From contig NZ_CP061312.1 of the NCBI RefSeq assembly GCF_018688155.1, forward strand, positions 372,001 through 436,000: a stretch of 64,000 bases of DNA, given 5' to 3'. Of this stretch, positions 6,425-39,640 are shown piece after piece (position 1 is the stretch's first letter; each line of letters starts with the position of its first letter). The notes under the pieces were generated by a model. The model was not told where the DNA came from. It searched no databases and worked only from the letters and a program-made list of their open reading frames with translations. The position numbers were made by a program, and so were the translations under genes. This stretch comes from Polynucleobacter sp. AP-Sving-400A-A2. Its GTDB lineage: Bacteria; Pseudomonadota; Gammaproteobacteria; Burkholderiales; Burkholderiaceae.

Positions 6425-6847
6425 ATGATTTATTCTCGTCGCCTTTTTTTTACCTTTGTTTTGCTTTTGGGCTCTCATGAGTCGAGCTTTGCAATGGCTC
6501 AGGCCGAAAATGATATGGTGACTGTTGTGGATAAAAAAGGCTATTCCATTGCTTACTACAAAAGCTCTATTAAAGCATTGCCCCCAGAGTCAAAAAAAGT
6601 ATGGATTATTACCAATCGCCAAACAATAGACGAAGCCACGAAGCAACGCGTTGGATCTGTGCGCAGCAATATTCTCTTTAATTGCAAATATAAAACTTTT
6701 TCTACATTGGCTGCAGTTCAATACTCTGAACCAAATGCACTGGGTAAAAAGATTTTACAAACAGAGACCGGTTTCAATCTGGCGGATGATCCAGTGCCAG
6801 AGGACAGCGCTTTAGCAATAATACAAAAACAAGTTTGCAATTCTTAA
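6425..6847 (+). CDS. Secreted surface-adhesin E-like protein
   Basis: A 140-residue exported protein. The signal peptide covers about residues 1-25 ('RRLFFTFVLLLGSHESSFA' then MAQAE). The mature domain has 'VWIITNRQT', a Cys-Lys-Tyr block ('FNCKYKTFS') and a C-terminal 'QVCNS', the arrangement of the small surface-adhesin protein E-like family, in which the two cysteines form a disulfide. Role in this organism is unknown. It lies 16 bases ahead of the PilZ gene and could be co-transcribed with the operon that follows. Confidence 0.6.
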   Translation: MIYSRRLFFTFVLLLGSHESSFAMAQAENDMVTVVDKKGYSIAYYKSSIKALPPESKKVWIITNRQTIDEATKQRVGSVRSNILFNCKYKTFSTLAAVQYSEPNALGKKILQTETGFNLADDPVPEDSALAIIQKQVCNS

Positions 6848-6863
6848 TTCAATTTCAATTTAT

Positions 6864-7625
6864 ATGCCCATCATTACCTACCCCCCCGAATTAGCAGATA
6901 AAATAGATCCTAAATTTCATATAGAACACGCTGCTATAGCTAAAACTATGCTTCGAGAAATTAGTAAAACCCCCTTGGCAGGGGTGTATGCGATTGATGG
7001 ATCTGGTGCAGAGTTTGCAGCCACTGTTCTGGATATCTACAAGGGATTATTGGTCCTAAAGCCAGAGACCGAGCCTCCTAAGGGGTTCAGTAGCATTATT
7101 GGCACCAGTCAGATTGTTGTAGCTTGTAATGAAAACTCAAAAATGCAGTTTCTTTCGAGTGATTTTAGGATGCATGAAGATGGTAGTTTAATAACCTGCT
7201 CTCTCCCGCAAGAACTTACTGTGATCCAGCGCCGTAAAGAATTCAGGACCTTAGGGCCGAGTGATGAGCAGTTCAATTTCGTTCTTTCATTAGGGGCTGG
7301 TCAAGAATTATTGGCAAAAGTGGCCGATGTTTCTGATCATGGTATTTTGCTAGATATTCGTTTGGGCGCAGCTGAAGTTGAAGTGGGGCGCTATTGGCAT
7401 TCAGGATACTTTGAGCGCCAAAAATTTCGCTCAGGTGGTATTGACTTAATCATCCGCAATGTCCGCCCTGGTAAAGCGCTTGATCGAATTCGAGCGGGTT
7501 GCGAGCTATACAACCCTAGCAAAACCGCGCTCAAAGAATTTGAGTCTACTAGAAATGCCATTGAAAATGCCCGTGTACAAGGTCGCTTAAATCGTTGGTA
7601 TGCATCGGCTAGTTGGTGTGAATAA
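6864..7625 (+). CDS. YcgR-like PilZ protein (c-di-GMP flagellar brake type)
   Basis: A 253-residue cytosolic protein with the two-domain YcgR layout: an N-terminal split-barrel domain (about 20-115) and a C-terminal PilZ domain. Both c-di-GMP contact motifs are intact: RxxxR (R124 to R128 in RRKEFR) and D/NxSxxG (D155-V-S-D-H-G160). In enterobacteria YcgR with c-di-GMP binds the stator or switch and slows the motor. Here it heads an operon of chemosensory-derived proteins ending in flgA-flgM-flgN. The ATG at 6864 has no strong ribosome site. PilZ assignment is firm; the brake role is inferred from architecture and context. Confidence 0.85.
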   Translation: MPIITYPPELADKIDPKFHIEHAAIAKTMLREISKTPLAGVYAIDGSGAEFAATVLDIYKGLLVLKPETEPPKGFSSIIGTSQIVVACNENSKMQFLSSDFRMHEDGSLITCSLPQELTVIQRRKEFRTLGPSDEQFNFVLSLGAGQELLAKVADVSDHGILLDIRLGAAEVEVGRYWHSGYFERQKFRSGGIDLIIRNVRPGKALDRIRAGCELYNPSKTALKEFESTRNAIENARVQGRLNRWYASASWCE

Positions 7626-7663
7626 CCACAATGCTTACACCCTAAGATAATGAAGCTAAAGTC

Positions 7664-8479
7664 ATGAGCTTGTTTACTAACTTTACAAGTGGAAAATTGA
7701 TCATGATCCTCAGTGTGATCATGCTTATTCCACTGCTGTATTTTTTTATTCGTGATTTTTACAGCAAAGTGGTTGATGAGGTAAAAAATACTGGCCCATC
7801 TATCCCGGTTGAGCCCATTATGGTTACCAGCTTAAATAAAACAAATCAGCTTGAAGAAGTAATCAATCAAAAGATTGCTAACATGAAGTTAGATTTAATG
7901 GCTGAACGCTTGCGTATTACCTCTACGGCCGATGTATTAAAAAACCTAGCATTTGAACGACATCTTCCAGAAACTCTTTATCAGATTTATTTTGAGACGC
8001 GAGCCTTCCCCAGGAAAAATGTAGAAGCTCAGCAAACGGATTTGGAATGGCATGCCAAAGCTGGTATTACAGAGCTTAAGGTAGAGCCAATGCCATTAGA
8101 TGATGGCACTGTTATTCAATTTACTTTGCAGAATTACCCGTATACGCTTAGCGCTATCAATCATCGCTTTGCTAGAACCTATTTTGTTGAATTAACCCTA
8201 CGCGATGTTGATAACACTCGCTTATTTGTAGTGCGTATTAAGGCTAATGAATTAACCGGCAGAGAGATTTTGGAAACAGCCATAATTGAAATGAAATCTG
8301 GTGAGTGGATAGATGATCTTGCTAGTTGCCGCCTATTAATGGACAAGCGCAAGACTGAGGTTCAGTTAATGGCTGAGCATCGTGAAGTAGAGATGCTTAA
8401 AAAGCGTTTCATTTTAAATAATGCTAGCGATAGATTTGTGGCAAATAAAACTACTACTAAGTCGCGCAAGAGTGAATGA
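7664..8479 (+). CDS. Membrane-anchored protein, unknown, in the chemosensory-derived operon
   Basis: A 271-residue protein with one N-terminal membrane segment (about residues 10-28, 'GKLIMILSVIMLIPLLYFF') followed by coiled-coil-prone sequence (to ~80) and a soluble domain of mixed beta/alpha character (about 120-215). The C-terminal ~50 residues are highly charged and helical. It overlaps the following PDZ gene by 4 bases (ATGA). I do not recognise the family. Tight coupling to the PDZ, PilI-like, PilJ-like and CheA-like genes suggests it is a structural member of the same complex. Confidence 0.7.
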   Translation: MSLFTNFTSGKLIMILSVIMLIPLLYFFIRDFYSKVVDEVKNTGPSIPVEPIMVTSLNKTNQLEEVINQKIANMKLDLMAERLRITSTADVLKNLAFERHLPETLYQIYFETRAFPRKNVEAQQTDLEWHAKAGITELKVEPMPLDDGTVIQFTLQNYPYTLSAINHRFARTYFVELTLRDVDNTRLFVVRIKANELTGREILETAIIEMKSGEWIDDLASCRLLMDKRKTEVQLMAEHREVEMLKKRFILNNASDRFVANKTTTKSRKSE

Positions 8480-9504
8480 TCGTTGCGACTGAAAAAATGA
8501 CTTTCTACTCACAAAAAAATATCTATTTTTGGTTTTTAACCTTTTCTGGATTCCTGTTTGCGGTCTCCTTATTGGTGCTACTTGGGGCTGCAAACGATTT
8601 ATCAGAATCTTCTTCGGAGTTGAAGCAGCTTAGAGTTGCAATGCCGGTATTAGAGGATTTTGTTGCAACTCAAAAAATTGATGTTCGCCTCAATAAAAAT
8701 CAGCGCCGCTTAAAGCCTAGCGATATTCCAAAGTTAGTCGATGGTGCAATTATTCCAGTAAATACAGATGAGGCAGTGAATCGTGCTTTTCAATTTTTTT
8801 CTGAATTTGAAAACAAACGTTCTGCATCATTGCTTGGACTTGAATTGCCCGCTGTAGAGTCAATTGAGCTTGGCTCACCTGCTGAGGCGGCAGGCATAAA
8901 ACCGGGCGATTTAATCTTATCTGTTAATGCAACAAAGATTGAATCTGCCTTAGGTTTTTATCTTGCATTGAACGAAAAAAATTCCGCAGATGTAAACGTT
9001 AAATTATTGAGAAACAAAAGAGATAGCTTGACAGTTGTAATGCGTATGGCAAACAGGTCAACAATCACAGGAAGCAATTGTGGAATTAAATTTACCCTTC
9101 CTGGTGATGTTATCTACTTGACAGAATTTGAGACCAAGCGGCTTGCAGAGCTATATCGTCGGGATGTATTGTCAACGATCCCAGTAGATTGGCGGGCCGA
9201 AGTATCTAATGACCTAATGCAAATTTCTAGGCGCCTTAATGCTATTGCCAAAAACGTGATTGACCCAGCTGGTGTAAATCCAGTCAGATTACAAAGCAAA
9301 GATGTAGTTATCTGGCATGGCAAAAAGGTTGCAGAAAACATTGATATTTACTTTTCCCAGAGACGCAAGATTGAAGCTAAGAATGTTTCATATATGACGG
9401 GGATCGGAGATGCATTTGTTGGTTTTGTATGCAGCGTGCTCATTTTCGTTGTGGCACTTGCCATGTTTTGGTATCAAGGTCGTGAATCAGGAAAAAGGTC
9501 ATGA
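8476..9504 (+). CDS. Two-pass membrane protein with a periplasmic PDZ domain
   Basis: A 342-residue protein with a membrane segment at each end: about residues 17-36 ('FWFLTFSGFLFAVSLLVLLG') and 310-333. Between them lies a presumably periplasmic region with a PDZ domain (about 118-185) carrying the typical 'GSPAEAAGIKPGDLILSVN' core beginning at residue 133. PDZ domains bind C-terminal peptides; no protease catalytic triad is visible, so this is a binding or scaffold protein. Both ends overlap neighbours by 4 bases, so it is translationally coupled to the membrane protein before and the CheW-like protein after. Confidence 0.8.
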   Translation: MIVATEKMTFYSQKNIYFWFLTFSGFLFAVSLLVLLGAANDLSESSSELKQLRVAMPVLEDFVATQKIDVRLNKNQRRLKPSDIPKLVDGAIIPVNTDEAVNRAFQFFSEFENKRSASLLGLELPAVESIELGSPAEAAGIKPGDLILSVNATKIESALGFYLALNEKNSADVNVKLLRNKRDSLTVVMRMANRSTITGSNCGIKFTLPGDVIYLTEFETKRLAELYRRDVLSTIPVDWRAEVSNDLMQISRRLNAIAKNVIDPAGVNPVRLQSKDVVIWHGKKVAENIDIYFSQRRKIEAKNVSYMTGIGDAFVGFVCSVLIFVVALAMFWYQGRESGKRS

Positions 9505-9908
9505 CAACATTACAAATGCAAGATTACTGGTTAGGAATGCGGATTAATGGTGGCCGTTATGCAATTTCGACTAAATTCATACATGCCGTCTTTTTGCATC
9601 CGGAGCCTGAGCAGGGCATGAAAGATCTACGCATTAATGGCGTTGTAGTCTACAAGGGTGAACCCATTTGCTTGCGCAATCATTTTCAACTGCTGCGCTT
9701 TGATCAACACGGAGATAGTTTTGTGGATTGGCATCAGTCTCTAAAGCAGTCTAGCGCACCTTGGATCATTGTGTTGAGAAATGGCCCTCAAGAAGGCTTG
9801 GGTTTCAGGATTAATAATATTGTGGGACCTTTTTACGCTGAGACGATACCTGATTCTTCATTCTTTTATCACAACGGCGCTGATTATCATTTGGTAGGGG
9901 TCTCTTGA
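9501..9908 (+). CDS. PilI/CheW-like coupling protein
   Basis: A 135-residue single-domain protein following the CheW plan: 'LGMRINGGRYAISTKFIHAV' at the N-terminus, 'NGVVVYKGEPICLRNHFQLL' (equivalent to the 'G...RG..iPv.DL' block) and 'WIIVLRNGPQEGLGFRINNI' (equivalent to the 'gl.VD.V' block). CheW-type proteins join receptors to CheA. It is slightly short and divergent, closer in feel to PilI of the pilus chemosensory pathway. Its place directly before a PilJ-like gene and a CheA-like gene repeats the pilI-pilJ-chpA order, which supports the call. Confidence 0.7.
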   Translation: MTTLQMQDYWLGMRINGGRYAISTKFIHAVFLHPEPEQGMKDLRINGVVVYKGEPICLRNHFQLLRFDQHGDSFVDWHQSLKQSSAPWIIVLRNGPQEGLGFRINNIVGPFYAETIPDSSFFYHNGADYHLVGVS

Positions 9909-9955
9909 GACCGATATGCAGATCAGTCACTTAATCGCTAGTCGAGATCATTTAT

Positions 9956-11950
9956 ATGAATAAGAAAAATAATAGCCATATCTTTTCCCAGTACCCAATT
10001 CTTTTTTGGCAGTGGGTTTCATATGTCTCGTTTGCGCTTGTATTGGCTGCCAGTATCGGTGCTTTTCTCTCTGCGCGCTCTTGGGTATCCGAAGGTAAGT
10101 ATCTGCAATCAATTGATGGCGAACAGATTCAAGTGTTACGTTTGATTCCTTTCTTAAAAGAGTTACAGCAGCAAACAAATGGTCCCATTGCCTTAGAGCC
10201 TATTTTTTTTACAAACTTAAAAAAAGCTGAGATCTTCTTAAAGTCAGCAACTGCAGACTTGAAGAGCCAGCCCGAGCTAAGTCCTAATTCAGCATCTGCT
10301 GTGTCGACCAAGGGGATAAGTGAACCTACTGCATTGAAGTCTTCAGGTGGCGGAGTAGCAGCTCCAGCTATAAAAAATCCGAGCGCGACTAAAGAAGCAG
10401 AATCGTCTACTCCTTTGTTGCCACTATCCGATAATCCGGTAGTTGCTCTTTTTCAAAGGTTGGACTCTAAGGTAATGGCTGTCGTTTTCGGTAAGCCTGA
10501 GAAATATGCTATCAAGTCCGACAAAAAAAATGAGGATGAGAAATCTGAGCAGACAGAGCCAGCTGAAAATCTCAAGAAGAATCCAAAGCCTTCTACACCG
10601 CTTGAGGTGCTACTAAGCGCTAAAGATACTGAGCAGTCAATTGGAGTAATACTCGCACAAGAAAAAGGCTTAAATGATTTGGCTGTCTTAGCAAGGTCAG
10701 GTGAGGTATTAATTGGCTCTAAAGGACCGCTAGAGTTAGATAAATTACCCTCTGAATCTGCTGTAAAAAAATATGCAGAAAGTATAGGCAATTATGTCAA
10801 GGCACACAATGCTTGGCAAAAAAATGCTACTGATATTACGATAATTTTAGATCTTCAAAAAGCACTTGCCGCAGTTCTTGAGCAAAAGATGCTTTTGGAA
10901 ATTGATATCGGTAAAAAAACAGCTGGTAAGTCAAACCTCAAGCTAACAGATGTGGCGCCTAAGGTGCCGCAAAGTCCTTGGTATTCCAAGTTACCGCAAG
11001 AAAGTGCAGTAGTACTTAATACTTATATTTTGAATATGCGGGTAATCAAGGATTTCGCGAATGACTATGGGTCTTTGCGTCTTGCTGCGCAAAAAAAATC
11101 TCAATCAATTCAATATTTTGATTTTAAAGATGCTGGTGGATTTTTAGGTTTAATTTTAGTTTCGATCATTGCTGCTTTTGGAATCATCTTGGGTGCTTAT
11201 ATGGCGCTTGTGAATACTCGGCGTAATTCGCAAGATTTGCAGCGGGCATCTAAACAGACTAGGGCTGCCGGCCAACTATTAAAAACAATTGACTTAGGCT
11301 TTGCTAGTGCGCCAAGTAACAAAACATCCAAGGCTAATTCACAAAACAGTGATTCTGATCAATCGACAGACCAGCTCAATGTGAAGACAGTGATGAATGT
11401 CATTTCCGAGTTAAGTGATGATTTAAAAAATAAAATTAAAAAAATTGACACGCACTTTAAAGTGCTTGCCCAGCTCAATACTAAATTACGCCATTCTATT
11501 GATACCCTGCATGAGAAGAGTGGCCAGATTCGTACAAATGTATCTGATAAAAGTAGTAACTCACCTTACAGCCAAGAGATGGGTATCAGTAGAGGCGGAC
11601 CTTTAGACCAGCTTCAAGATGCTTTTTCTGCTTTAAAGCAACAGGGTGTACGTCTTTACTTGGCCATATTGGATAATCATTCTAGTAAACAGCTTGCCGT
11701 AGAAACAGAGCAGCTGAATTTATTAGTAGAGAGAGTCGAGGCTACTGTATCGAAGATGCGCTCGACGCTAGCTGTCGCACTAGAACAAGCAACGCCTATG
11801 GAAGTGCAGGCGCCACAGATTTCTTTAGAAGCCATTGAGCTTTTGAGTATGGATGCTAAACAGGTCATGCGCGATCTTCAGTTATGGCAGGGTGAATTTG
11901 ATGGGTTGAATAAAGCCTTTACTGAATTAAAACGAGAAGCAAGGGTCTAA
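9956..11950 (+). CDS. PilJ-like membrane protein without a methyl-accepting hairpin
   Basis: A 664-residue protein. A first membrane helix (about 14-40) is followed by a PilJ-type segment ('YLQSIDGEQIQVLRLIPFL', ~48-103), a Ser/Pro/Lys-rich linker with little order (~104-220), a second helical periplasmic region (~222-390) and a second membrane helix (~393-418). The cytoplasmic part (~420-664) is predicted coiled coil. It lacks the strictly conserved hairpin tip of methyl-accepting proteins, which normally contacts CheA and CheW. It looks like a PilJ relative that lost the canonical signalling end or replaced it. Followed by the CheA-like gene after 33 bases. Confidence 0.65.
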   Translation: MNKKNNSHIFSQYPILFWQWVSYVSFALVLAASIGAFLSARSWVSEGKYLQSIDGEQIQVLRLIPFLKELQQQTNGPIALEPIFFTNLKKAEIFLKSATADLKSQPELSPNSASAVSTKGISEPTALKSSGGGVAAPAIKNPSATKEAESSTPLLPLSDNPVVALFQRLDSKVMAVVFGKPEKYAIKSDKKNEDEKSEQTEPAENLKKNPKPSTPLEVLLSAKDTEQSIGVILAQEKGLNDLAVLARSGEVLIGSKGPLELDKLPSESAVKKYAESIGNYVKAHNAWQKNATDITIILDLQKALAAVLEQKMLLEIDIGKKTAGKSNLKLTDVAPKVPQSPWYSKLPQESAVVLNTYILNMRVIKDFANDYGSLRLAAQKKSQSIQYFDFKDAGGFLGLILVSIIAAFGIILGAYMALVNTRRNSQDLQRASKQTRAAGQLLKTIDLGFASAPSNKTSKANSQNSDSDQSTDQLNVKTVMNVISELSDDLKNKIKKIDTHFKVLAQLNTKLRHSIDTLHEKSGQIRTNVSDKSSNSPYSQEMGISRGGPLDQLQDAFSALKQQGVRLYLAILDNHSSKQLAVETEQLNLLVERVEATVSKMRSTLAVALEQATPMEVQAPQISLEAIELLSMDAKQVMRDLQLWQGEFDGLNKAFTELKREARV

Positions 11951-11983
11951 TGCAATCGATTTTTTATAAGGCGTAATTTAAGT

Positions 11984-13459
11984 ATGGCCGAAGAAAAACC
12001 CCTGTTTTTAATTGATATTGATCGTGCTATTGAAGGTCTGCAGACTGCTGCCCCCAAAAAAGGTTCGGTGTCAGCAGTATCGATTGAGCCATTAATCATG
12101 CATAGCGTTGATTTAGCTAATGCTCTAGATGGTGCTGGATTAGATGCTTTAAGTGAGATGACTAACGAGTTAGCACAGTATTTTAAGAAAAATGATGTGC
12201 AAGCCTTTTTGGTATTGGATGATCTGGTTAGTCTAGTGAGATCAGAAGTCGCCTTTACACATCCATCGGTAACGAGTGAAGTATCTTTAACTTTAGAGCA
12301 ATTAAATCAAGCAAAAGTGTTATTCGCTAGCAAGTTATCACAAATCAAAAATGGTTTGCCGATAAGCGAGAATCTTGATGCTATTTCAATAAGGGATCTG
12401 CCTGCTGAGTTAGTTCCTGAGGTGATTCAAGAGGCGATTGAGACTGTCAGTGGTGAAGAGGAAGAGCAGGTCCTTGCGAGGGCGTCAATTTCTGAGTTGC
12501 CTACTACCCCAACTGCACCCGAGGTATTCCCAGAGCCTTCTCTCGCAGAGCTGAGCGCTTTATTTGCGCCGCGTCTTCATGAAGAGTCTCCGGTAGTCTT
12601 TACTCCTCCAGAGCCCAAAGCATTTTCTTTTCCTGAGGGTCTCACTCGTCCTCTTGAGCGCGAAAATTCATTAGATTATTCAGGAAGTCAGCGTTACTTA
12701 GACAAGCACTTTTCCTTGGATCGCACCCATAATCTCAATCGCATGCAAATAGCGCGAAGCTTAGTCACGAAGGCTGACAACTGGAACGCTGTAGAGCTTG
12801 ATTTCTTACTTGGGCGTGAGCAAGATGAGCTCACTAAATCTGGCCAACAATCATTGCGTCATGTATTTGAGAATTTGACAGATGAGCTTTTGATTGATGA
12901 AGTGTATGCTGATCCTGAGATTGTTCAGCAACTGGTCACGATCATTAGTATCTTGCCACCTTGCCCCAGTATTTTTGCAGTTCAGCAAGATTTAATGATT
13001 TTTATTGATTTAGACCATATAGCCTTATCGGCTGAACATCTCTTGGCAGCAGGCAAAATGATGGCTGAAATTGGGGGGTCACTTGATATACATCATGAGG
13101 GAGTCCGCTTATCATGCCCATCAAGTTTATTAAGAATGCCCATGGTCTTTTTTGGACGGCATGGGCAAAACTATGCTGTTTCGGCAATTCAATATTTAGG
13201 GGAAGAGGCTCTCAATAAACCAGTGGATAGTAAGGTAGATGCATTAGGCGAGATTTTGCATCCTGCCAGAATGATTAATCTGCAAGTTGGCAACCAGCCT
13301 TACTCTATTTATGCCCATGAATTTTTAGGGGTTCAGAATATGAATATCCACCGCAATATCCCTAAATTGTTAGAGCGCCCTTATTGGTTGGCTGGTATGG
13401 CCTTAGATGGCATGAATAATGTGTACCCTTGGGTAGCCTTGGATCGGTTTACCAAATAA
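11984..13459 (+). CDS. Degenerate CheA/ChpA-like protein lacking kinase motifs
   Basis: A 491-residue protein. Its C-terminal ~110 residues (from ~383) follow the CheA regulatory (CheW-like) domain: 'FFGRHGQNYAVSAIQYLGE', then 'MINLQVGNQPYSIYAHEFLG' and a closing 'GMALDGMNNVYPWVALDRF'. Just before it, 'MAEIGGSLDIHHEGVRLSCP' (around 358-378) echoes the end of a CheA ATPase domain. The phosphoacceptor motif (H-x-x-K-G) is not present anywhere, and no N-box or GxG ATP-lid motif is visible. The N-terminal half is acidic and low in conserved motifs. It therefore looks like a scaffold rather than a kinase. The stop overlaps the flgA start (TAATG). Confidence 0.65.
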   Translation: MAEEKPLFLIDIDRAIEGLQTAAPKKGSVSAVSIEPLIMHSVDLANALDGAGLDALSEMTNELAQYFKKNDVQAFLVLDDLVSLVRSEVAFTHPSVTSEVSLTLEQLNQAKVLFASKLSQIKNGLPISENLDAISIRDLPAELVPEVIQEAIETVSGEEEEQVLARASISELPTTPTAPEVFPEPSLAELSALFAPRLHEESPVVFTPPEPKAFSFPEGLTRPLERENSLDYSGSQRYLDKHFSLDRTHNLNRMQIARSLVTKADNWNAVELDFLLGREQDELTKSGQQSLRHVFENLTDELLIDEVYADPEIVQQLVTIISILPPCPSIFAVQQDLMIFIDLDHIALSAEHLLAAGKMMAEIGGSLDIHHEGVRLSCPSSLLRMPMVFFGRHGQNYAVSAIQYLGEEALNKPVDSKVDALGEILHPARMINLQVGNQPYSIYAHEFLGVQNMNIHRNIPKLLERPYWLAGMALDGMNNVYPWVALDRFTK

Positions 13460-14145
13460 TGCCGCTTTTTCATCGCTTTTTGATATGGGGTGTATTTTGT
13501 TCGCTATCGCAAACCCTTTATGCTGCTTTACCTCCAGATCTTGAGCAAACCATTAAGCGATTTATACAAAAAAGTCCTACCGTTAATGGTTTGCGGGTGG
13601 AGACTGAATGGCTCGAGCCTAATCTCACGATTCCAGCTTGCTTGGGCGGTAGCATTGAAATTTTGACTCCCCCAGGTGCTCGTTTATGGGGTAGGTCCAT
13701 GATCCAATTGCGTTGCACCAAAGCTGCTTGGTTAATCAATGTACCGGTCAATATTCATGCTTATGGAGACTATGTTGTTGCCAGCCGCTACCTGCCTTTT
13801 GGTCAAAAGCTCGAAAGTGGGGATATTCGGGTAATAGAGGGTGATTTAACCGTCTTGCCAGATGACGTACTTCGAAACCCTAGGGCGGCTTATGAGCGGG
13901 TTTTGGGTAAATCTTTGCAAATGGGCATGCCAATTGGGTTAAACGATTTAAAAGAATCTGCCGTAATAAAGGTAGGAGATCCTGTTAGGATTCAATTGAC
14001 AGGAAAAGATTTTCAGGTTTCGGGGGAAGGTGTTGCCCAAACCACCGGAATGATTGGGGATATGGTTAGGGTGCGCTTATCGGACGGGCAGGTTTTACAA
14101 GGCAAGGTATTAAGGCCTGGAATTATTAGCGTAAATATGGAATAA
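13459..14145 (+). CDS. flgA: Flagellar P-ring assembly chaperone FlgA
   Basis: A 228-residue periplasmic protein with a signal peptide (first ~22 residues, ending 'SQTLYA'). The C-terminal SAF/FlgA domain shows 'ASRYLPFGQKLESGDIRVIE', a lysine-rich helix and the closing beta-strands 'GDMVRVRLSDGQVLQGKVL'. FlgA helps FlgI monomers form the P ring in the peptidoglycan layer. The start is the ATG at 13459 overlapping the CheA-like stop; the longer frame from 13429 lies inside that gene. Being the coupled last-but-two gene of the chemosensory-derived operon ties that operon to the flagellum. Confidence 0.9.
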   Translation: MPLFHRFLIWGVFCSLSQTLYAALPPDLEQTIKRFIQKSPTVNGLRVETEWLEPNLTIPACLGGSIEILTPPGARLWGRSMIQLRCTKAAWLINVPVNIHAYGDYVVASRYLPFGQKLESGDIRVIEGDLTVLPDDVLRNPRAAYERVLGKSLQMGMPIGLNDLKESAVIKVGDPVRIQLTGKDFQVSGEGVAQTTGMIGDMVRVRLSDGQVLQGKVLRPGIISVNME

Positions 14146-14213: not shown

Positions 14214-14558
14214 ATGAAGATTAACGAGAATGCACCACTAATTCCGCCAAATACTGGAACAGCTAAACCTGTGCCAGGCTCGAACTCGACTGCCAATACA
14301 ACTAATACAGCTTTAAATCAAACCTCAGCATCTTCGGTCAGTCGCCCTGCAGTCAATTTAGACATTGGTTTAGCAGCCAAGCTTGCTGAAGCGCACAGCA
14401 GTACTAGCGCTACCAATCAGGTCAGCGACGAACTCTTAATTAAAAAACTACGTGATAAGGTTGCTACTGGTCAGTTTGAGATTGATTACAACAAGATCTC
14501 CCAATCAATGCTTAAAGACGTGGTTGCAGCAATTGGGCAAAAACCAAGTCGTCCTTAA
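14214..14558 (+). CDS. flgM: Anti-sigma-28 factor FlgM
   Basis: A 114-residue protein with an unstructured Asn/Thr/Pro-rich N-terminal half and the conserved C-terminal sigma-binding helices ('DELLIKKLRDKVATGQFEID' followed by 'NKISQSMLKDVV'). FlgM holds FliA inactive until the hook is finished and is then exported through the flagellar channel. It follows flgA by 68 bases with a good ribosome site (AAAGGAGAATGAG) and precedes flgN. The target FliA is encoded nearby on the opposite strand (15092-15781). Confidence 0.92.
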   Translation: MKINENAPLIPPNTGTAKPVPGSNSTANTTNTALNQTSASSVSRPAVNLDIGLAAKLAEAHSSTSATNQVSDELLIKKLRDKVATGQFEIDYNKISQSMLKDVVAAIGQKPSRP

Positions 14559-14657: not shown

Positions 14658-15071
14658 ATGGTGATACCACATCCGTCCATGTCTTTTGATGATTTATTGG
14701 AGTTCTTAAAGGGTATTGCAAATGCTATTGAGGGTCTGCGTAAAGCCTTAGAGGCAAACGATATGGATAGACTCCCAGAATCGCTAGACAGCACTAATCA
14801 GGCTTTGGATGCTATTCAGAATTATCCAGGAGGTGCTGACAAGCTCAAGCAAGATATTCACCAGTTTGAGTCAGCACAAACTAAGCAATTATTAGCATTA
14901 CTAGATGAAGCCTCGGTTAATCATCAAATCAATGGCGACCTGATTCGCTTGGCCATGCAACGAAGCTCTGCTATGCAATCTTTTATCGCCCAGCAAGCCC
15001 CAAGCGCTACTTATGGAAGTGATGGGGGAGTGCCAGGATCAGTAGGCGGCGTTCTATCTCGCAAAGTATAG
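14658..15071 (+). CDS. flgN: Flagellar export chaperone FlgN
   Basis: A 137-residue helical protein, the expected length and place (directly after flgM) for FlgN, the cytosolic chaperone of hook-filament junction proteins FlgK and FlgL. Helical segments with many Leu/Gln ('LDDLL'-like start, 'LLDEASVNHQINGDLIRLAM') match the family pattern, and the C-terminus is Gly-rich and flexible. Sequence similarity in this family is low, so the call rests largely on size and context. It converges on fliA. Confidence 0.75.
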   Translation: MVIPHPSMSFDDLLEFLKGIANAIEGLRKALEANDMDRLPESLDSTNQALDAIQNYPGGADKLKQDIHQFESAQTKQLLALLDEASVNHQINGDLIRLAMQRSSAMQSFIAQQAPSATYGSDGGVPGSVGGVLSRKV

Positions 15072-26474: not shown

Positions 26475-26822
26475 TTAGACTTGTAGATTGGTGACTTCTT
26501 TGTAGGCGTCAACTAGTTTATTTCGAACTGCAATCATGCCTTGCAGCGAAAGGTTGGCTTTTTGCAAAGAGACGATCACATCTTCCAATGAAGTATCGGA
26601 TGCGCCGGTAGAAAATGATTGGGCTTTTGCTTGGGCGCTATTTTGAGCTGTATTGACGTTCTCAATGGCATTTTTCAAAATAGCAGAGAAGTCAACTCCA
26701 TTGGCGCCTTGAGTATCTGCAGCGACAGGTTTACCACTAGCTGCAGCAGCAAGCGCTTGCATCCGGGTAATCATGGCATCTACGTTTGGAGTACTCATAG
26801 TCATATTATCCAACAAAATCAA
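26475..26822 (-). CDS. fliE: Hook-basal body protein FliE
   Basis: A 115-residue rod component, exported early and joining the MS ring to the proximal rod. The C-terminal family pattern is present ('LEDVIVSLQKANLSLQGMIA' then 'RNKLVDAYKEVTNLQV'). Position 26822 overlaps the flrC stop by 4 bases, so fliE is the third gene of the minus-strand flrB-flrC-fliE operon. This is unusual, as fliE normally leads fliF on the same strand; here fliF diverges on the other side of flrB. Confidence 0.93.
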   Translation of the reverse strand: MILLDNMTMSTPNVDAMITRMQALAAAASGKPVAADTQGANGVDFSAILKNAIENVNTAQNSAQAKAQSFSTGASDTSLEDVIVSLQKANLSLQGMIAVRNKLVDAYKEVTNLQV

Positions 26823-28318
26823 TCATTAATAAAGCCAGCTTCTTTGTAGTATTTTAGTTTGTAGCGCAGTGCTCTTGCTGAAATCCCCAATATTTCTACT
26901 GCCTTGGTTCTATTGCCATCCACTTTGGCCAAAACTTTCAGAATGTGCTCACGTTCTACTGAATCAATATCTTGTCCAATTTCATCATTAATAGATGCAA
27001 TATTTGTGCCACTTTTTGGGGCATCTATAGCGCTATCCAAAGCTGCATTTAAAGCCTCATGGGCCACTGGTGGCGTATCTATAGGGGCACTTTTTGCCTT
27101 TTCTAAAGAATGAATACTCATATCTTCTAGCTCTAAGTCTTCTGCCAAGATTTGGTCGCCATCTGCTAGTAATACGGCTCTTTGGACAATATTCTCTAGT
27201 TCCCGAACATTTCCTGGCCAAGAATAGGTTTGCAGCAGTTTTTTTGCCCCCTCGCTGAAGCTAAGTTGATCTCGACCAATATTGAGGCGATAGCGGGATA
27301 AAAAGAAATCAGCCAGCGGCAAGATATCCAGTGGGCGCTTAGAAAGCTCGGCTACATGGATGGGGAATACGGCTAATCGAAAGTAAAGGTCTTCCCGAAA
27401 CTTGCCACTCTTAACTTGCTCTTGGAGGTTGCGATTGGTGGCCGCAATCACCCTGACATCCGCTTGAATCAATTCGGTAGAACCAATCCGTTCTACCATT
27501 TTGTCTTGTAACACCCGCAAAAGCTTCGCTTGTAAAGAGGCTGGCATTTCACCAATCTCATCTAAAAAAAGCGTGCCTTTATGGGCTTGCTCAAATTTAC
27601 CAGTTTGAGCTTTGGTGGCACCAGTAAAGGAGCCTTTTTCATGCCCAAACAAAATAGATTCAAGTAAGGCATCAGGAATCGCTGCGCAGTTAATCGCTAC
27701 GTACGGGCCTTTTATTCTTTTTGAATGCAGATGGATGTGACGCGCGACTAACTCTTTGCCAACTCCAGACTGACCAGTAACCAAGACGCTTGTATCTGTT
27801 GCCGCCACTCTCTCGCAGCGAGCAAACGTAGCAATGGTTTCAGGATCAGCGGCAATTAATTGATGCTCGGGCACGAGTATTTCAGAGCCAACTAGTGGCG
27901 CGTCCTTAGCAGGAGCTACCAAGGTATTTACCTTAATTGATTCTGGTTGATAGCGCGCAATGATGTCAATGAGTTGTTGTGGCACAAAGGGCTTAATTAA
28001 AAAATCTCTTGCTCCAGCACGCAAAGCTTCTACAGCCAACTTGGCGTCCGCAAAAGCAGTCATGATTACTACTGGAAGATCAGGACATTCTTTTTGAGCT
28101 ATCTTGAGTAAATCCAATCCTGTCATTCCAGGTAATTTGTAATCCGTTACTAAAACTGTTTTCAGATCTGGGCGTAATAAGGGAATGACTGTTTCTGCTC
28201 TTTGGTGAGTCACAAAGTCGATCATATTCATCCGCAAAGTAACGGCAATCGCCTCTCTGAGGTCATCATCATCTTCGATCAAAATCACGGGAAATGGCTG
28301 TGGGTCGCTGGCACGCAT
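26819..28318 (-). CDS. flrC: Sigma-54-dependent response regulator, FlrC/FleR type
   Basis: A 499-residue activator. The receiver domain (1-120) has acidic residues around D16-D19, the phosphoacceptor D59 ('VTDYKLPGMTG') and the conserved Lys in 'DFLIKPF'. The AAA+ domain (~155-385) has Walker A (GQSGVGKE, near residue 178), Walker B 'GTLFLDEIGEMP', and the sigma-54-contact loop GSFTGA (near 228) rather than the common GAFTGA. A Fis-type helix-turn-helix closes the protein ('TKAVEILGISARALRYKLKY'). It should open sigma-54 promoters of hook-basal-body genes when phosphorylated by the adjacent kinase. Confidence 0.92.
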   Translation of the reverse strand: MRASDPQPFPVILIEDDDDLREAIAVTLRMNMIDFVTHQRAETVIPLLRPDLKTVLVTDYKLPGMTGLDLLKIAQKECPDLPVVIMTAFADAKLAVEALRAGARDFLIKPFVPQQLIDIIARYQPESIKVNTLVAPAKDAPLVGSEILVPEHQLIAADPETIATFARCERVAATDTSVLVTGQSGVGKELVARHIHLHSKRIKGPYVAINCAAIPDALLESILFGHEKGSFTGATKAQTGKFEQAHKGTLFLDEIGEMPASLQAKLLRVLQDKMVERIGSTELIQADVRVIAATNRNLQEQVKSGKFREDLYFRLAVFPIHVAELSKRPLDILPLADFFLSRYRLNIGRDQLSFSEGAKKLLQTYSWPGNVRELENIVQRAVLLADGDQILAEDLELEDMSIHSLEKAKSAPIDTPPVAHEALNAALDSAIDAPKSGTNIASINDEIGQDIDSVEREHILKVLAKVDGNRTKAVEILGISARALRYKLKYYKEAGFIND

Positions 28319-28332
28319 AAGGGTTTTCTGAC

Positions 28333-29487
28333 TTAATGATTTAAAGAGGGTTGGGCATAAGGTAGATTGATCTGGAAGATGGCACCTTGTTTAGAGTTCT
28401 CAGCGCTGATACTGCCTCGAAAGCTCTCAATGGTATTTTTTGCAATCGAAAGACCAAGTCCAGTGCCATTAGCGCTGGTGGTAGAAAAGGGTTCAAATAA
28501 GGATTTGAGCATTTCTTTGGCGATGCCTGGACCTTGGTCAGAAATCGTAATGGTTAGTATGTGTTGATCACTTGTCGCTTGCATTCTGACTGTTTGATTG
28601 GCTTTAGAAACAGCTAAAGCATTTTCGAGAATGGCAACAATGGCATTGGAGATTGCTTTAGGCTCTACCAATAAATTTCCGTTATTGACATTGTTAGCAG
28701 TGACAGATAGTTTGACTTGCTTGGCTTCAAAAAGAAACTGAATGCTAGCTTGAGCGTCTTCAATAATTTGGACCGCATTTACTAGCGTAGTCTTATTGGG
28801 TTTATTGGAAATAAAGCGCAGCATATCTTGCGAGAGCTTTTCTAAATCCAATAATTGTTTACGCAGGCGATCAGCAAATTCCTTTGAAGTATCAGCGTTG
28901 ATCTGCCCGTCACAAAGATGCGATGCATATAGCAGGGCAGTTGCCAGAGGCGTTCTAAATTGATGAGCTATACCAGCAGCCATACGACCCATTGCCGCCA
29001 ATCGATTTTCTCGCTGCGTTTCCTCGTGACGCAAAATATTGGTGGTGATATCTTGGATCTGAATAAAGCTACGCGGGCCTTCGTTAATACGAGCGACTTG
29101 CACAGTTTTTTGGATGCGTTTTTGGGCACCCTTTTGGGTAATGAGATATTCCCCTGGCGTGATGGAAGCTTGCCAATCGCTTGGAATTTCAAAAGTGGCC
29201 CCAGGTTTTAATTGGGGCAGAAAGATCAGCACAGCAGGGTTATGTAATAAAACGACTTCATTTTCCAGCAAGATAACCCCTGCTGGAATGGCATTTAAGA
29301 GAATCGCCAAGCGTTGGTTGGATTTTTGGAGTTCACTACTGAGTTGATTGATCTTTTCCTGAAGCGCAGTTTGTTGAGCTTCCAGTTTTTGAGATTCCGC
29401 ATAAAAAATCGCAAAAGCCTCCTCGAGATGTTTGGTAGCATCTAATGAATCTTGCGGAGAAGGTAATTTGCCGGTTTTTGTACTCAA
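28333..29487 (-). CDS. flrB: Sensor histidine kinase, FlrB/FleS type
   Basis: A 384-residue soluble kinase without membrane helices. The N-terminus is coiled coil (~30-65), followed by a PAS-like domain ('RLAILLNAIPAGVILLENEV'), the H box 'AAGIAHQFRTPLATALLYAS' (phosphoacceptor His near residue 173) and an ATPase domain with 'ISDQGPGIAKEMLKSLFEPF' and 'GTGLGLSIAKNTIESF'. It phosphorylates the neighbouring FlrC-like regulator. The cytosolic, PAS-containing form is typical of flagellar kinases that sense basal-body assembly state. Confidence 0.92.
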   Translation of the reverse strand: MSTKTGKLPSPQDSLDATKHLEEAFAIFYAESQKLEAQQTALQEKINQLSSELQKSNQRLAILLNAIPAGVILLENEVVLLHNPAVLIFLPQLKPGATFEIPSDWQASITPGEYLITQKGAQKRIQKTVQVARINEGPRSFIQIQDITTNILRHEETQRENRLAAMGRMAAGIAHQFRTPLATALLYASHLCDGQINADTSKEFADRLRKQLLDLEKLSQDMLRFISNKPNKTTLVNAVQIIEDAQASIQFLFEAKQVKLSVTANNVNNGNLLVEPKAISNAIVAILENALAVSKANQTVRMQATSDQHILTITISDQGPGIAKEMLKSLFEPFSTTSANGTGLGLSIAKNTIESFRGSISAENSKQGAIFQINLPYAQPSLNH

Positions 29488-38500: not shown

Positions 38501-39640
38501 ATGGCGACAGGAGCAATCAATGTCGAGATGAACATTGCCGCTGAAGATCAGCAGTCAATGTTCGACAAATCGAAGATTATTGCTCGTCGGCGCATGCCGA
38601 CATTGGAGCTCATACACGAACGCTTTTGTCGGGCGGTACGTTTATCTCTGTTTAATATGATCCGCGCACCGATTGAGGTGCAGATGCATATGCCGAGCGT
38701 CAAAAGCTATGAGCAATTTGTGTCCGAATTTCCTGAGCGTACCAATATCAATATCGTAGGCATCCGTCCACTGCGTGGCGTAGGCTGCTGGATTGTTGAT
38801 CCTGGTGTTGTGTATATCGCGATTGATAATATGTTTGGTGGTGAGGGTCGGTTGGCACCAAGGCTGGCATTACGCGAATACACACCGACGGAGTTGCGTA
38901 TTATTCGTCGCCTAGTCGATGCACTGCTCAACGACTATGAGAAAGCTTGGAAAGCAGTATATGAAATTAAGTTTGACTTCATGCGCCAAGAGACTAATTT
39001 TGGGTTTGCCAAAATAACTTCACCTAGCGAGATGGTGCTGCATTCAAAATTTACTATTGAGATTAATGGCAGACCAGGTGATGTTGACCTCTGTATTCCA
39101 TTCTGGGTAATGGAGCCAATCAAAGCAATCTTGTATAACAATATGCAAGGCTTTGCAAGTGAGCCAGATGAACATTGGACGAACTTATTAAACGACCAGG
39201 TTCATGAAGCCCCAGTGACTGCTGTAGCTGTATTGGCCCGTAAGCAGATGCTCTTGCGTGAAATTACCTCCTTATCAGTGGGGGATATCATCCCTATAGA
39301 AATTAATGATCCGGTTACCGTTTATGTGGATGGTTTACCAGTGATCAAGGGGCAATATGGTGTAAAAGAAGGGCGCTATTCAGTTAAAGTAAGTACGATT
39401 CAGCACCCTGCAGAATTCCTAAAGAGCCCTCTAGAGAAGGCGCGCCTTGGACCCAGCATGATGCGAAGTGCTGAAAAAGGTGAGTTATATGAGCAACTTG
39501 CTGAAAACCCTCATGTGCCTGCCACAATGCGGGCTCCTGAACCCAATCAACGAGATGTCTCAAGCGATACAATGGACCAAGTTGCGGATACACTTGAGCC
39601 CAATGAATCCATTGATCAAACAGGCTCAGCACAAGAATAA
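38501..39640 (+). CDS. fliM: Flagellar motor switch protein FliM, lacking the CheY-binding N-terminus
   Basis: A 379-residue FliM with a normal middle domain ('LELIHERFCRAVRLSLFNMI', 'IAIDNMFGGEGR', 'EYTPTELRIIRRLVDALLND') and a C-terminal SpoA domain ('GDIIPIEINDPVTVYVDGLP'). The N-terminal peptide that normally binds phospho-CheY (LSQxEIDALL) is absent: the protein starts 'MATGAINVEMNIAAEDQQ'. An in-frame TAG three codons before the ATG rules out a longer form. The motor would thus not respond to CheY by the classical docking step. The C-terminal ~60 residues are a polar tail. Confidence 0.94.
   Translation: MATGAINVEMNIAAEDQQSMFDKSKIIARRRMPTLELIHERFCRAVRLSLFNMIRAPIEVQMHMPSVKSYEQFVSEFPERTNINIVGIRPLRGVGCWIVDPGVVYIAIDNMFGGEGRLAPRLALREYTPTELRIIRRLVDALLNDYEKAWKAVYEIKFDFMRQETNFGFAKITSPSEMVLHSKFTIEINGRPGDVDLCIPFWVMEPIKAILYNNMQGFASEPDEHWTNLLNDQVHEAPVTAVAVLARKQMLLREITSLSVGDIIPIEINDPVTVYVDGLPVIKGQYGVKEGRYSVKVSTIQHPAEFLKSPLEKARLGPSMMRSAEKGELYEQLAENPHVPATMRAPEPNQRDVSSDTMDQVADTLEPNESIDQTGSAQE

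Follow-up and report, generated by a model that had tools for sequence, protein, structure and literature searches.

In a 64,000-nucleotide stretch (the window) of the single-contig, 2.03 Mb genome of Polynucleobacter sp. AP-Sving-400A-A2, six consecutive genes in a flagellar operon form a module with putative relatives of the chemosensory proteins CheW and CheA. We found that its core is three genes, here called W, J and A, and that A is, on its predicted structure, a degenerate CheA, a pseudokinase without the motifs needed for phosphorelay. Flagellar control is generally taught as a chain from CheA through CheY to FliM. The module genome alters all three ends of this chain, with a motif-less kinase, no CheY found and a FliM without the CheY-docking peptide; the loss of FliM docking in module genomes, as read from their sequences, is new here and goes beyond an earlier note on this DNA. 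Selection nonetheless maintains the scaffold genes in aquatic bacteria, of which some are in culture, and the module offers a chance to test what a chemosensory scaffold does without phosphorylation. With moderate confidence, we propose that W, J and A make up a phosphorelay-free scaffold that acts by contact on a CheY-blind flagellum.

The three core proteins

All six open reading frames (ORFs) listed in the earlier note were present on the plus strand, with two 4-base overlaps among them: a PilZ/YcgR-like protein of 253 residues (6864–7625), a 271-residue protein of no known family, called TM271 here (7664–8479), a PDZ protein of 342 residues (8476–9504), W (135 residues, 9501–9908), J (664 residues, 9956–11950) and A (491 residues, 11984–13459).

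The structure predicted for A keeps the P1, P3, P4 and P5 folds in the order of CheA, the flagellar chemotaxis kinase, and all 11 of its Foldseek matches in the PDB at E ≤ 0.001 were CheA or CheW chains. P1, an Hpt fold (residues 1–126, 11984–12361), is followed by a low-confidence linker at the place of P2 (residues 130–243), a P3-like segment of two helices (residues 246–286, 12719–12841), a reduced P4 or HATPase fold (residues 287–381, 12842–13126) and a P5 fold (residues 382–490, 13127–13453) that agrees with the C-terminal CheW-like domain read earlier from the sequence. By hhalign, A matched CheA at the P4/P5 junction; in Pfam it matched no family at E ≤ 1. Unlike CheA, A lacks the H-x-x-K-G phosphoacceptor motif, the site reading H/Y-x-x-D-(L/I/M) in all 42 aligned sequences: Asp replaces Lys throughout, and the acceptor position holds His in 28, the window copy included, and Tyr in 14. 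Neither the Asn box nor the glycine boxes (N, G1, G2) appeared in the alignment columns read for P4, these columns being taken from a sequence alignment, so that their placement is approximate. P4 is also shortened and lacks the lid region, with 94 residues of A aligning to a 189-residue CheA P4. The missing kinase proposed earlier was thus confirmed for the H-x-x-K-G motif and the ATP boxes, but not for the Hpt and ATPase folds, which are kept in degenerate form; a check for a normal HATPase or Hpt domain returned only these.

A is a discrete protein family. One protein search gave 201 matches (120 listed) and another gave 68, the overlap between the two not being checked; none of the matches listed carried a Pfam domain, and their names, where given, were 'hypothetical protein'. 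The P. duraquae member is 87% identical to the window copy. At two loci A is divided into two overlapping ORFs (L029:13297–14785 and L037:6139–7652), for which sequencing error, decay and a two-piece protein are all possible. A polar regulator that derives from CheA and cannot be phosphorylated has a precedent in FimL of Pseudomonas aeruginosa, which comes from the ChpA N-terminus, has lost the phosphoacceptor His and is polar (PMC3019171). In FimL there are only Hpt-like domains, and its role is in the type IV pilus and cAMP, whereas A keeps P3-P4-P5 as well and has a flagellar neighbourhood.

W appears to be a very divergent CheW, an identity that rests on its relatives rather than on the window copy. 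Pfam CheW (PF01584) matched 9 of 19 W members at E ≤ 0.1, the best at 1.4e-4, and searching 151 Polynucleobacter genomes in six frames gave weak CheW matches in nine genomes with TM271. In eight of these the match starts about 1.9 kb from the TM271 start, which is the position of W, and in the ninth (G894) it lies on a different contig from TM271; positions were compared by hand, with one genome (G010) also checked against its ORFs, and the match in G856 just reaches the family cut-off. The earlier description of this small protein as PilI/CheW-like draws on these nine relatives and not on the window copy.

J has, by hydropathy, two transmembrane (TM) helices (residues ~21–39 and 396–414) flanking a periplasmic stretch, and then a long cytoplasmic tail. 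The periplasmic stretch measures about 355 residues in the window and about 242–255 in all four of the shorter relatives checked (L015, L052, L025 and L013), the criterion being two TM helices around ~250 residues as in PilJ or methyl-accepting chemotaxis proteins (MCPs). The PilJ domain PF13675 did not match window J at E ≤ 1, nor was it among the 25 families listed of the 27 matching any of 18 J members at E ≤ 0.1, and hhalign of J against three MCPs gave 1–2%. The two membrane helices and the missing methyl-accepting hairpin of the earlier note were borne out, its PilJ-type periplasmic segments were not, and a PilJ identity for J was not supported, as only topology and gene order agree with it.

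The three genes also keep a fixed order. We took every retrieved stretch of at least 3,900 bases holding A, labelled genes by family profiles and removed duplicate A copies, which left 27 distinct loci spanning Polynucleobacter and a second Burkholderiales family; W-J-A are adjacent, in that order, among labelled genes in all 27. Pil-Chp has the gene order pilI-pilJ-chpA and, like the module, places a CheW-like coupler first, a receptor-like protein with two TM helices second and a CheA-like protein third. Unlike Pil-Chp, a system of type IV pili whose parts have been described (PMC12632253), the module shows no MCP domain or PilJ match, gave no CheY-like partner in the searches made, is expected to have no kinase activity and lies in a flagellar operon.

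CheY and its docking site on FliM

The window genome gave no CheW-family match and no MCP domain, and no chemotaxis genes were recognised elsewhere in the window when its ORF list was named by eye. In five module genomes (G000, G003, G005, G018 and G053) all 41 response-regulator matches lay in open frames of at least 206 residues, and no CheY-sized regulator was found; a chemotactic control (G034) had four response regulators of 129–154 residues. In the second family, CheW was found in none of four module genomes, compared with 2 of 26 genomes of the whole family. One genome (G402) carries an ordinary MCP-CheA-CheW-CheB-CheR set, identified by eye (L058:3804–11584), near a flagellar cluster with the module and a CheY-blind FliM; after the set comes not a CheY but a receiver domain joined to an apparent nucleotide cyclase.

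The CheY-docking motif of FliM is LSQxExDxLL. The FliM N-terminus is established as the CheY target (PMC7355467), and the product of the window fliM (38501–39640, plus strand) lacks the N-terminal docking peptide. We searched 30 genomes for FliM, found it in 28 and could read its N-terminus in 27. The motif was absent from all 19 readable module genomes (21 tried; G142 gave fragments only and G845 none) and present in some form in all eight readable flagellate Polynucleobacter without TM271 (nine tried; G837 gave none), as LSQDEADALL in two, LSQNEMDTLL in two and looser forms such as LTEGELNELL in four. For 17 of these 21 genomes module status was read off the gene order, and for G853, G885, G893 and G907 it came from a TM271 match alone. 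In four of the nine genomes without TM271, the regions retrieved around the flagellar genes (72–100 kb each) held no match to W, J, A, TM271, PDZ or PilZ; the other five were assessed by TM271 only.

In a wider FliM search, among 120 listed of 542 matches, 53 more distant proteins all had the motif and 67 nearer ones all lacked it, 11 of the latter being fragments without an N-terminus. In a tree of 134 FliM sequences (13 fragments left out), the 73 motif-less ones fell in one clade with support of 0.95. The simplest reading is a single loss of CheY docking, in a group no narrower than that of the module. The genus lends itself to internal comparison, since it also includes flagellate members whose FliM keeps the docking peptide, and ordinary chemotaxis genes occur in some. 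It also holds a distantly related second set of flagellar genes (G007, G014, G034, G848 and others), with FlhA at 870–902 versus 816–837 bits among complete proteins, flhF at about 190–230 bits and no module in the four genomes looked at.

Distribution, accessory genes and selection

TM271 was found in 36 of 151 Polynucleobacter genomes, 7 of 399 Burkholderiales genomes and 3 of 398 genomes of the phylum, one of these doubtful; A was found in the same seven Burkholderiales genomes. FlhA was above its cut-off in 49 of the 151 Polynucleobacter genomes and in 31 of the 36 with TM271, the remaining five being assemblies of at least 100 contigs. The second family includes the isolate LSUCC0115 (L048, with the same A as L013), for which flagellar assembly genes are reported (PMC6952679).

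TM271 and the PDZ protein accompany the core in 23 of the 27 loci. TM271 has one N-terminal TM helix, a coiled coil, a six-stranded domain and a C-terminal helix, with no PDB match above noise. The PDZ protein matched PDZ_2 at E 6e-8 (about 8851–9027), the domain lying between two TM helices, which supports the membrane PDZ protein described before. The 6864 protein reached E 0.01 for Pfam PilZ, below cut-off, and E 2.9e-5 for NCBIfam YcgR, and carries the cyclic di-GMP (c-di-GMP) motifs RKEFR (RxxxR, by eye) and DVSDHG ([D/N]xSxxG); these weak matches and motifs are in keeping with its reading as YcgR-like. The second motif occurs in eight of nine PilZ proteins read and is absent from L014. 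Like the flagellar brake YcgR, the protein combines a PilZ domain bearing c-di-GMP motifs with a YcgR-like stretch; unlike it, it scores only 23.7 bits against a cut-off of 400 and is encoded beside the module in part of the family only.

That part is limited: PilZ lies upstream in 15 of the 27 loci (separated by about 1.3 kb in L037 and L118, and possibly hidden by contig ends in L033, L024 and L046) and was not found beside the module in second-family members. Four genomes (L052–L055) carry a minimal form, W-J-A with flgA-flgM-flgN, with no TM271 genome-wide and no PDZ or PilZ adjoining. Because of this minimal form and the 15 loci, the c-di-GMP-gated switch proposed earlier was not supported as the core idea, and such gating is at most an add-on.

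The ratio of nonsynonymous to synonymous substitution rates (dN/dS), computed from stop-to-stop frames against L036, which was the closest among five relatives in the comparison, was about 0.03 for W, 0.05 for TM271 and PilZ, 0.08 for PDZ, 0.13 for A and 0.16 for J. Neighbouring flagellar genes gave 0.07 (flgA), 0.23 (flgM), 0.05 (flgN), 0.04 (fliA) and 0.03 (flhG), so A and J evolve faster than four of these five. On these ratios the rates of A and J are not those of decay, and the module is under purifying selection. Since W-J-A keep their order in 27 of 27 loci and dN/dS lies between 0.03 and 0.16, the arrangement goes beyond chance.

Proposed action and competing explanations

We propose that W, J and A would assemble into a membrane-anchored scaffold resembling a chemosensory core unit, extended into the envelope at most loci by TM271 and the PDZ protein. 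Through direct contact or a change of conformation, and without phospho-CheY, this scaffold may act on a flagellum in which FliM has no CheY-docking peptide; the PilZ protein, added in many Polynucleobacter, would be a possible c-di-GMP input. The assembly, its location, its target (motor or flagellar assembly) and its signal are all inferred. The chemosensory origin, the loss of phosphorelay motifs in the CheA and the place in a flagellar operon, as put forward before, stand, and a chemosensory-derived, phosphorelay-less module is strengthened by a FliM without the docking peptide and by the lack of a CheY-sized regulator; the structural role, envelope sensing and action on the flagellum also suggested there are conjectural. 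More tentatively, and with less than even confidence, a core unit that has dropped phosphorylation altogether may steer the CheY-blind flagellum mechanically or conformationally, conveying information on the envelope and, for some lineages, on c-di-GMP; flagellar control would then work without any kinase, and the unit may already have been present in the ancestor of the entire CheY-blind FliM clade.

Several results weigh against the proposed scaffold. The window copy of W has no Pfam CheW match, hhalign of W against CheW gave a non-significant 0.5%, and J does not match the MCP hairpin PF00015. Single pieces of A are not significant by profile (hhalign: P1 0.1%, P4 8.5%, P5 1.1%), and its P4 part matches CheA no better than other histidine kinases. 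Three of the 36 genomes with TM271 carry strong CheW/CheA matches elsewhere, which are ordinary chemotaxis genes. The clade of motif-less FliM extends beyond the known range of the module and holds further lineages, among them a metagenome-assembled genome (MAG; P0232) named Aquabacterium, so no two-way link between the FliM change and the module is known. The type strain of a related species with flagellar genes, P. duraquae MWH-MoK4, is described as usually not seen to move, with colonies that may spread slowly on soft agar and one cell seen spinning (PMC5018217). Contacts among module proteins or with the flagellum are purely inferred.

A possible but less probable explanation is that W-J-A serve as a checkpoint on flagellar assembly or gene expression, working with FlgA, FlgM and FlgN or with FlhF/FlhG placement, and exert no motor control. 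As described before, flgA (13459–14145), flgM (14214–14558) and flgN (14658–15071) follow on the plus strand, with Pfam E values of 9.5e-21, 5.3e-5 and 3.4e-7, FlgM scoring slightly below threshold (23.8 bits against a cut-off of 25). In favour of a checkpoint, flgA is the next labelled gene after A in each of the 26 loci whose contig extends beyond A, fliA-flhG-flhF are convergent neighbours in many loci, and the A stop codon TAA (13457–13459) shares its last base with an ATG that is in frame with flgA (13459–13461; the longest ORF starts at 13429), which suggests coupled translation. This linkage could be mere operon membership, however, and a checkpoint leaves unexplained both the loss of the FliM peptide in the same genomes and the retained coupler-receptor-kinase order.

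That the module is a functionless chemotaxis operon losing parts after its lineage gave up taxis is improbable. The catalytic motifs are gone, A is split in 2 of 27 distinct loci, the genome is small, A and J outpace most flagellar neighbours, and motility was hardly observed in P. duraquae; yet dN/dS is far under 1, 27 columns of the A alignment are invariant across 42 sequences from two families, and the three-gene order is intact in 27 loci. Least probable is a cryptic phosphorelay in which another kinase phosphorylates the His kept, with the P1 fold, in 28 of 42 sequences, the window copy included, and the phosphate passes to a response regulator, given Tyr in 14, Asp for Lys in all 42 and no CheY-sized regulator in five module genomes.

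The rest of the window, named by eye from the ORF list, is mostly flagellar genes. Some relatives encode a second PilZ protein 3' of flgN (L016:10306–11001, L032:16409–17230 and L033:7507–8298). A 3,750-base contig labelled as a Thermoflexus hugenholtzii MAG (L051) carries a TM271 piece, 37% identical, and is probably misbinned. Two genes at 26819–29487 resemble a response regulator and a sensor, perhaps an NtrC-type flagellar regulator pair by eye, the first being a Response_reg match. Directly 5' of the PilZ gene, at 6425–6847, lies a small protein matching Adhesin_E (PF16747, E 1.6e-11), found at the same position in many Polynucleobacter loci.
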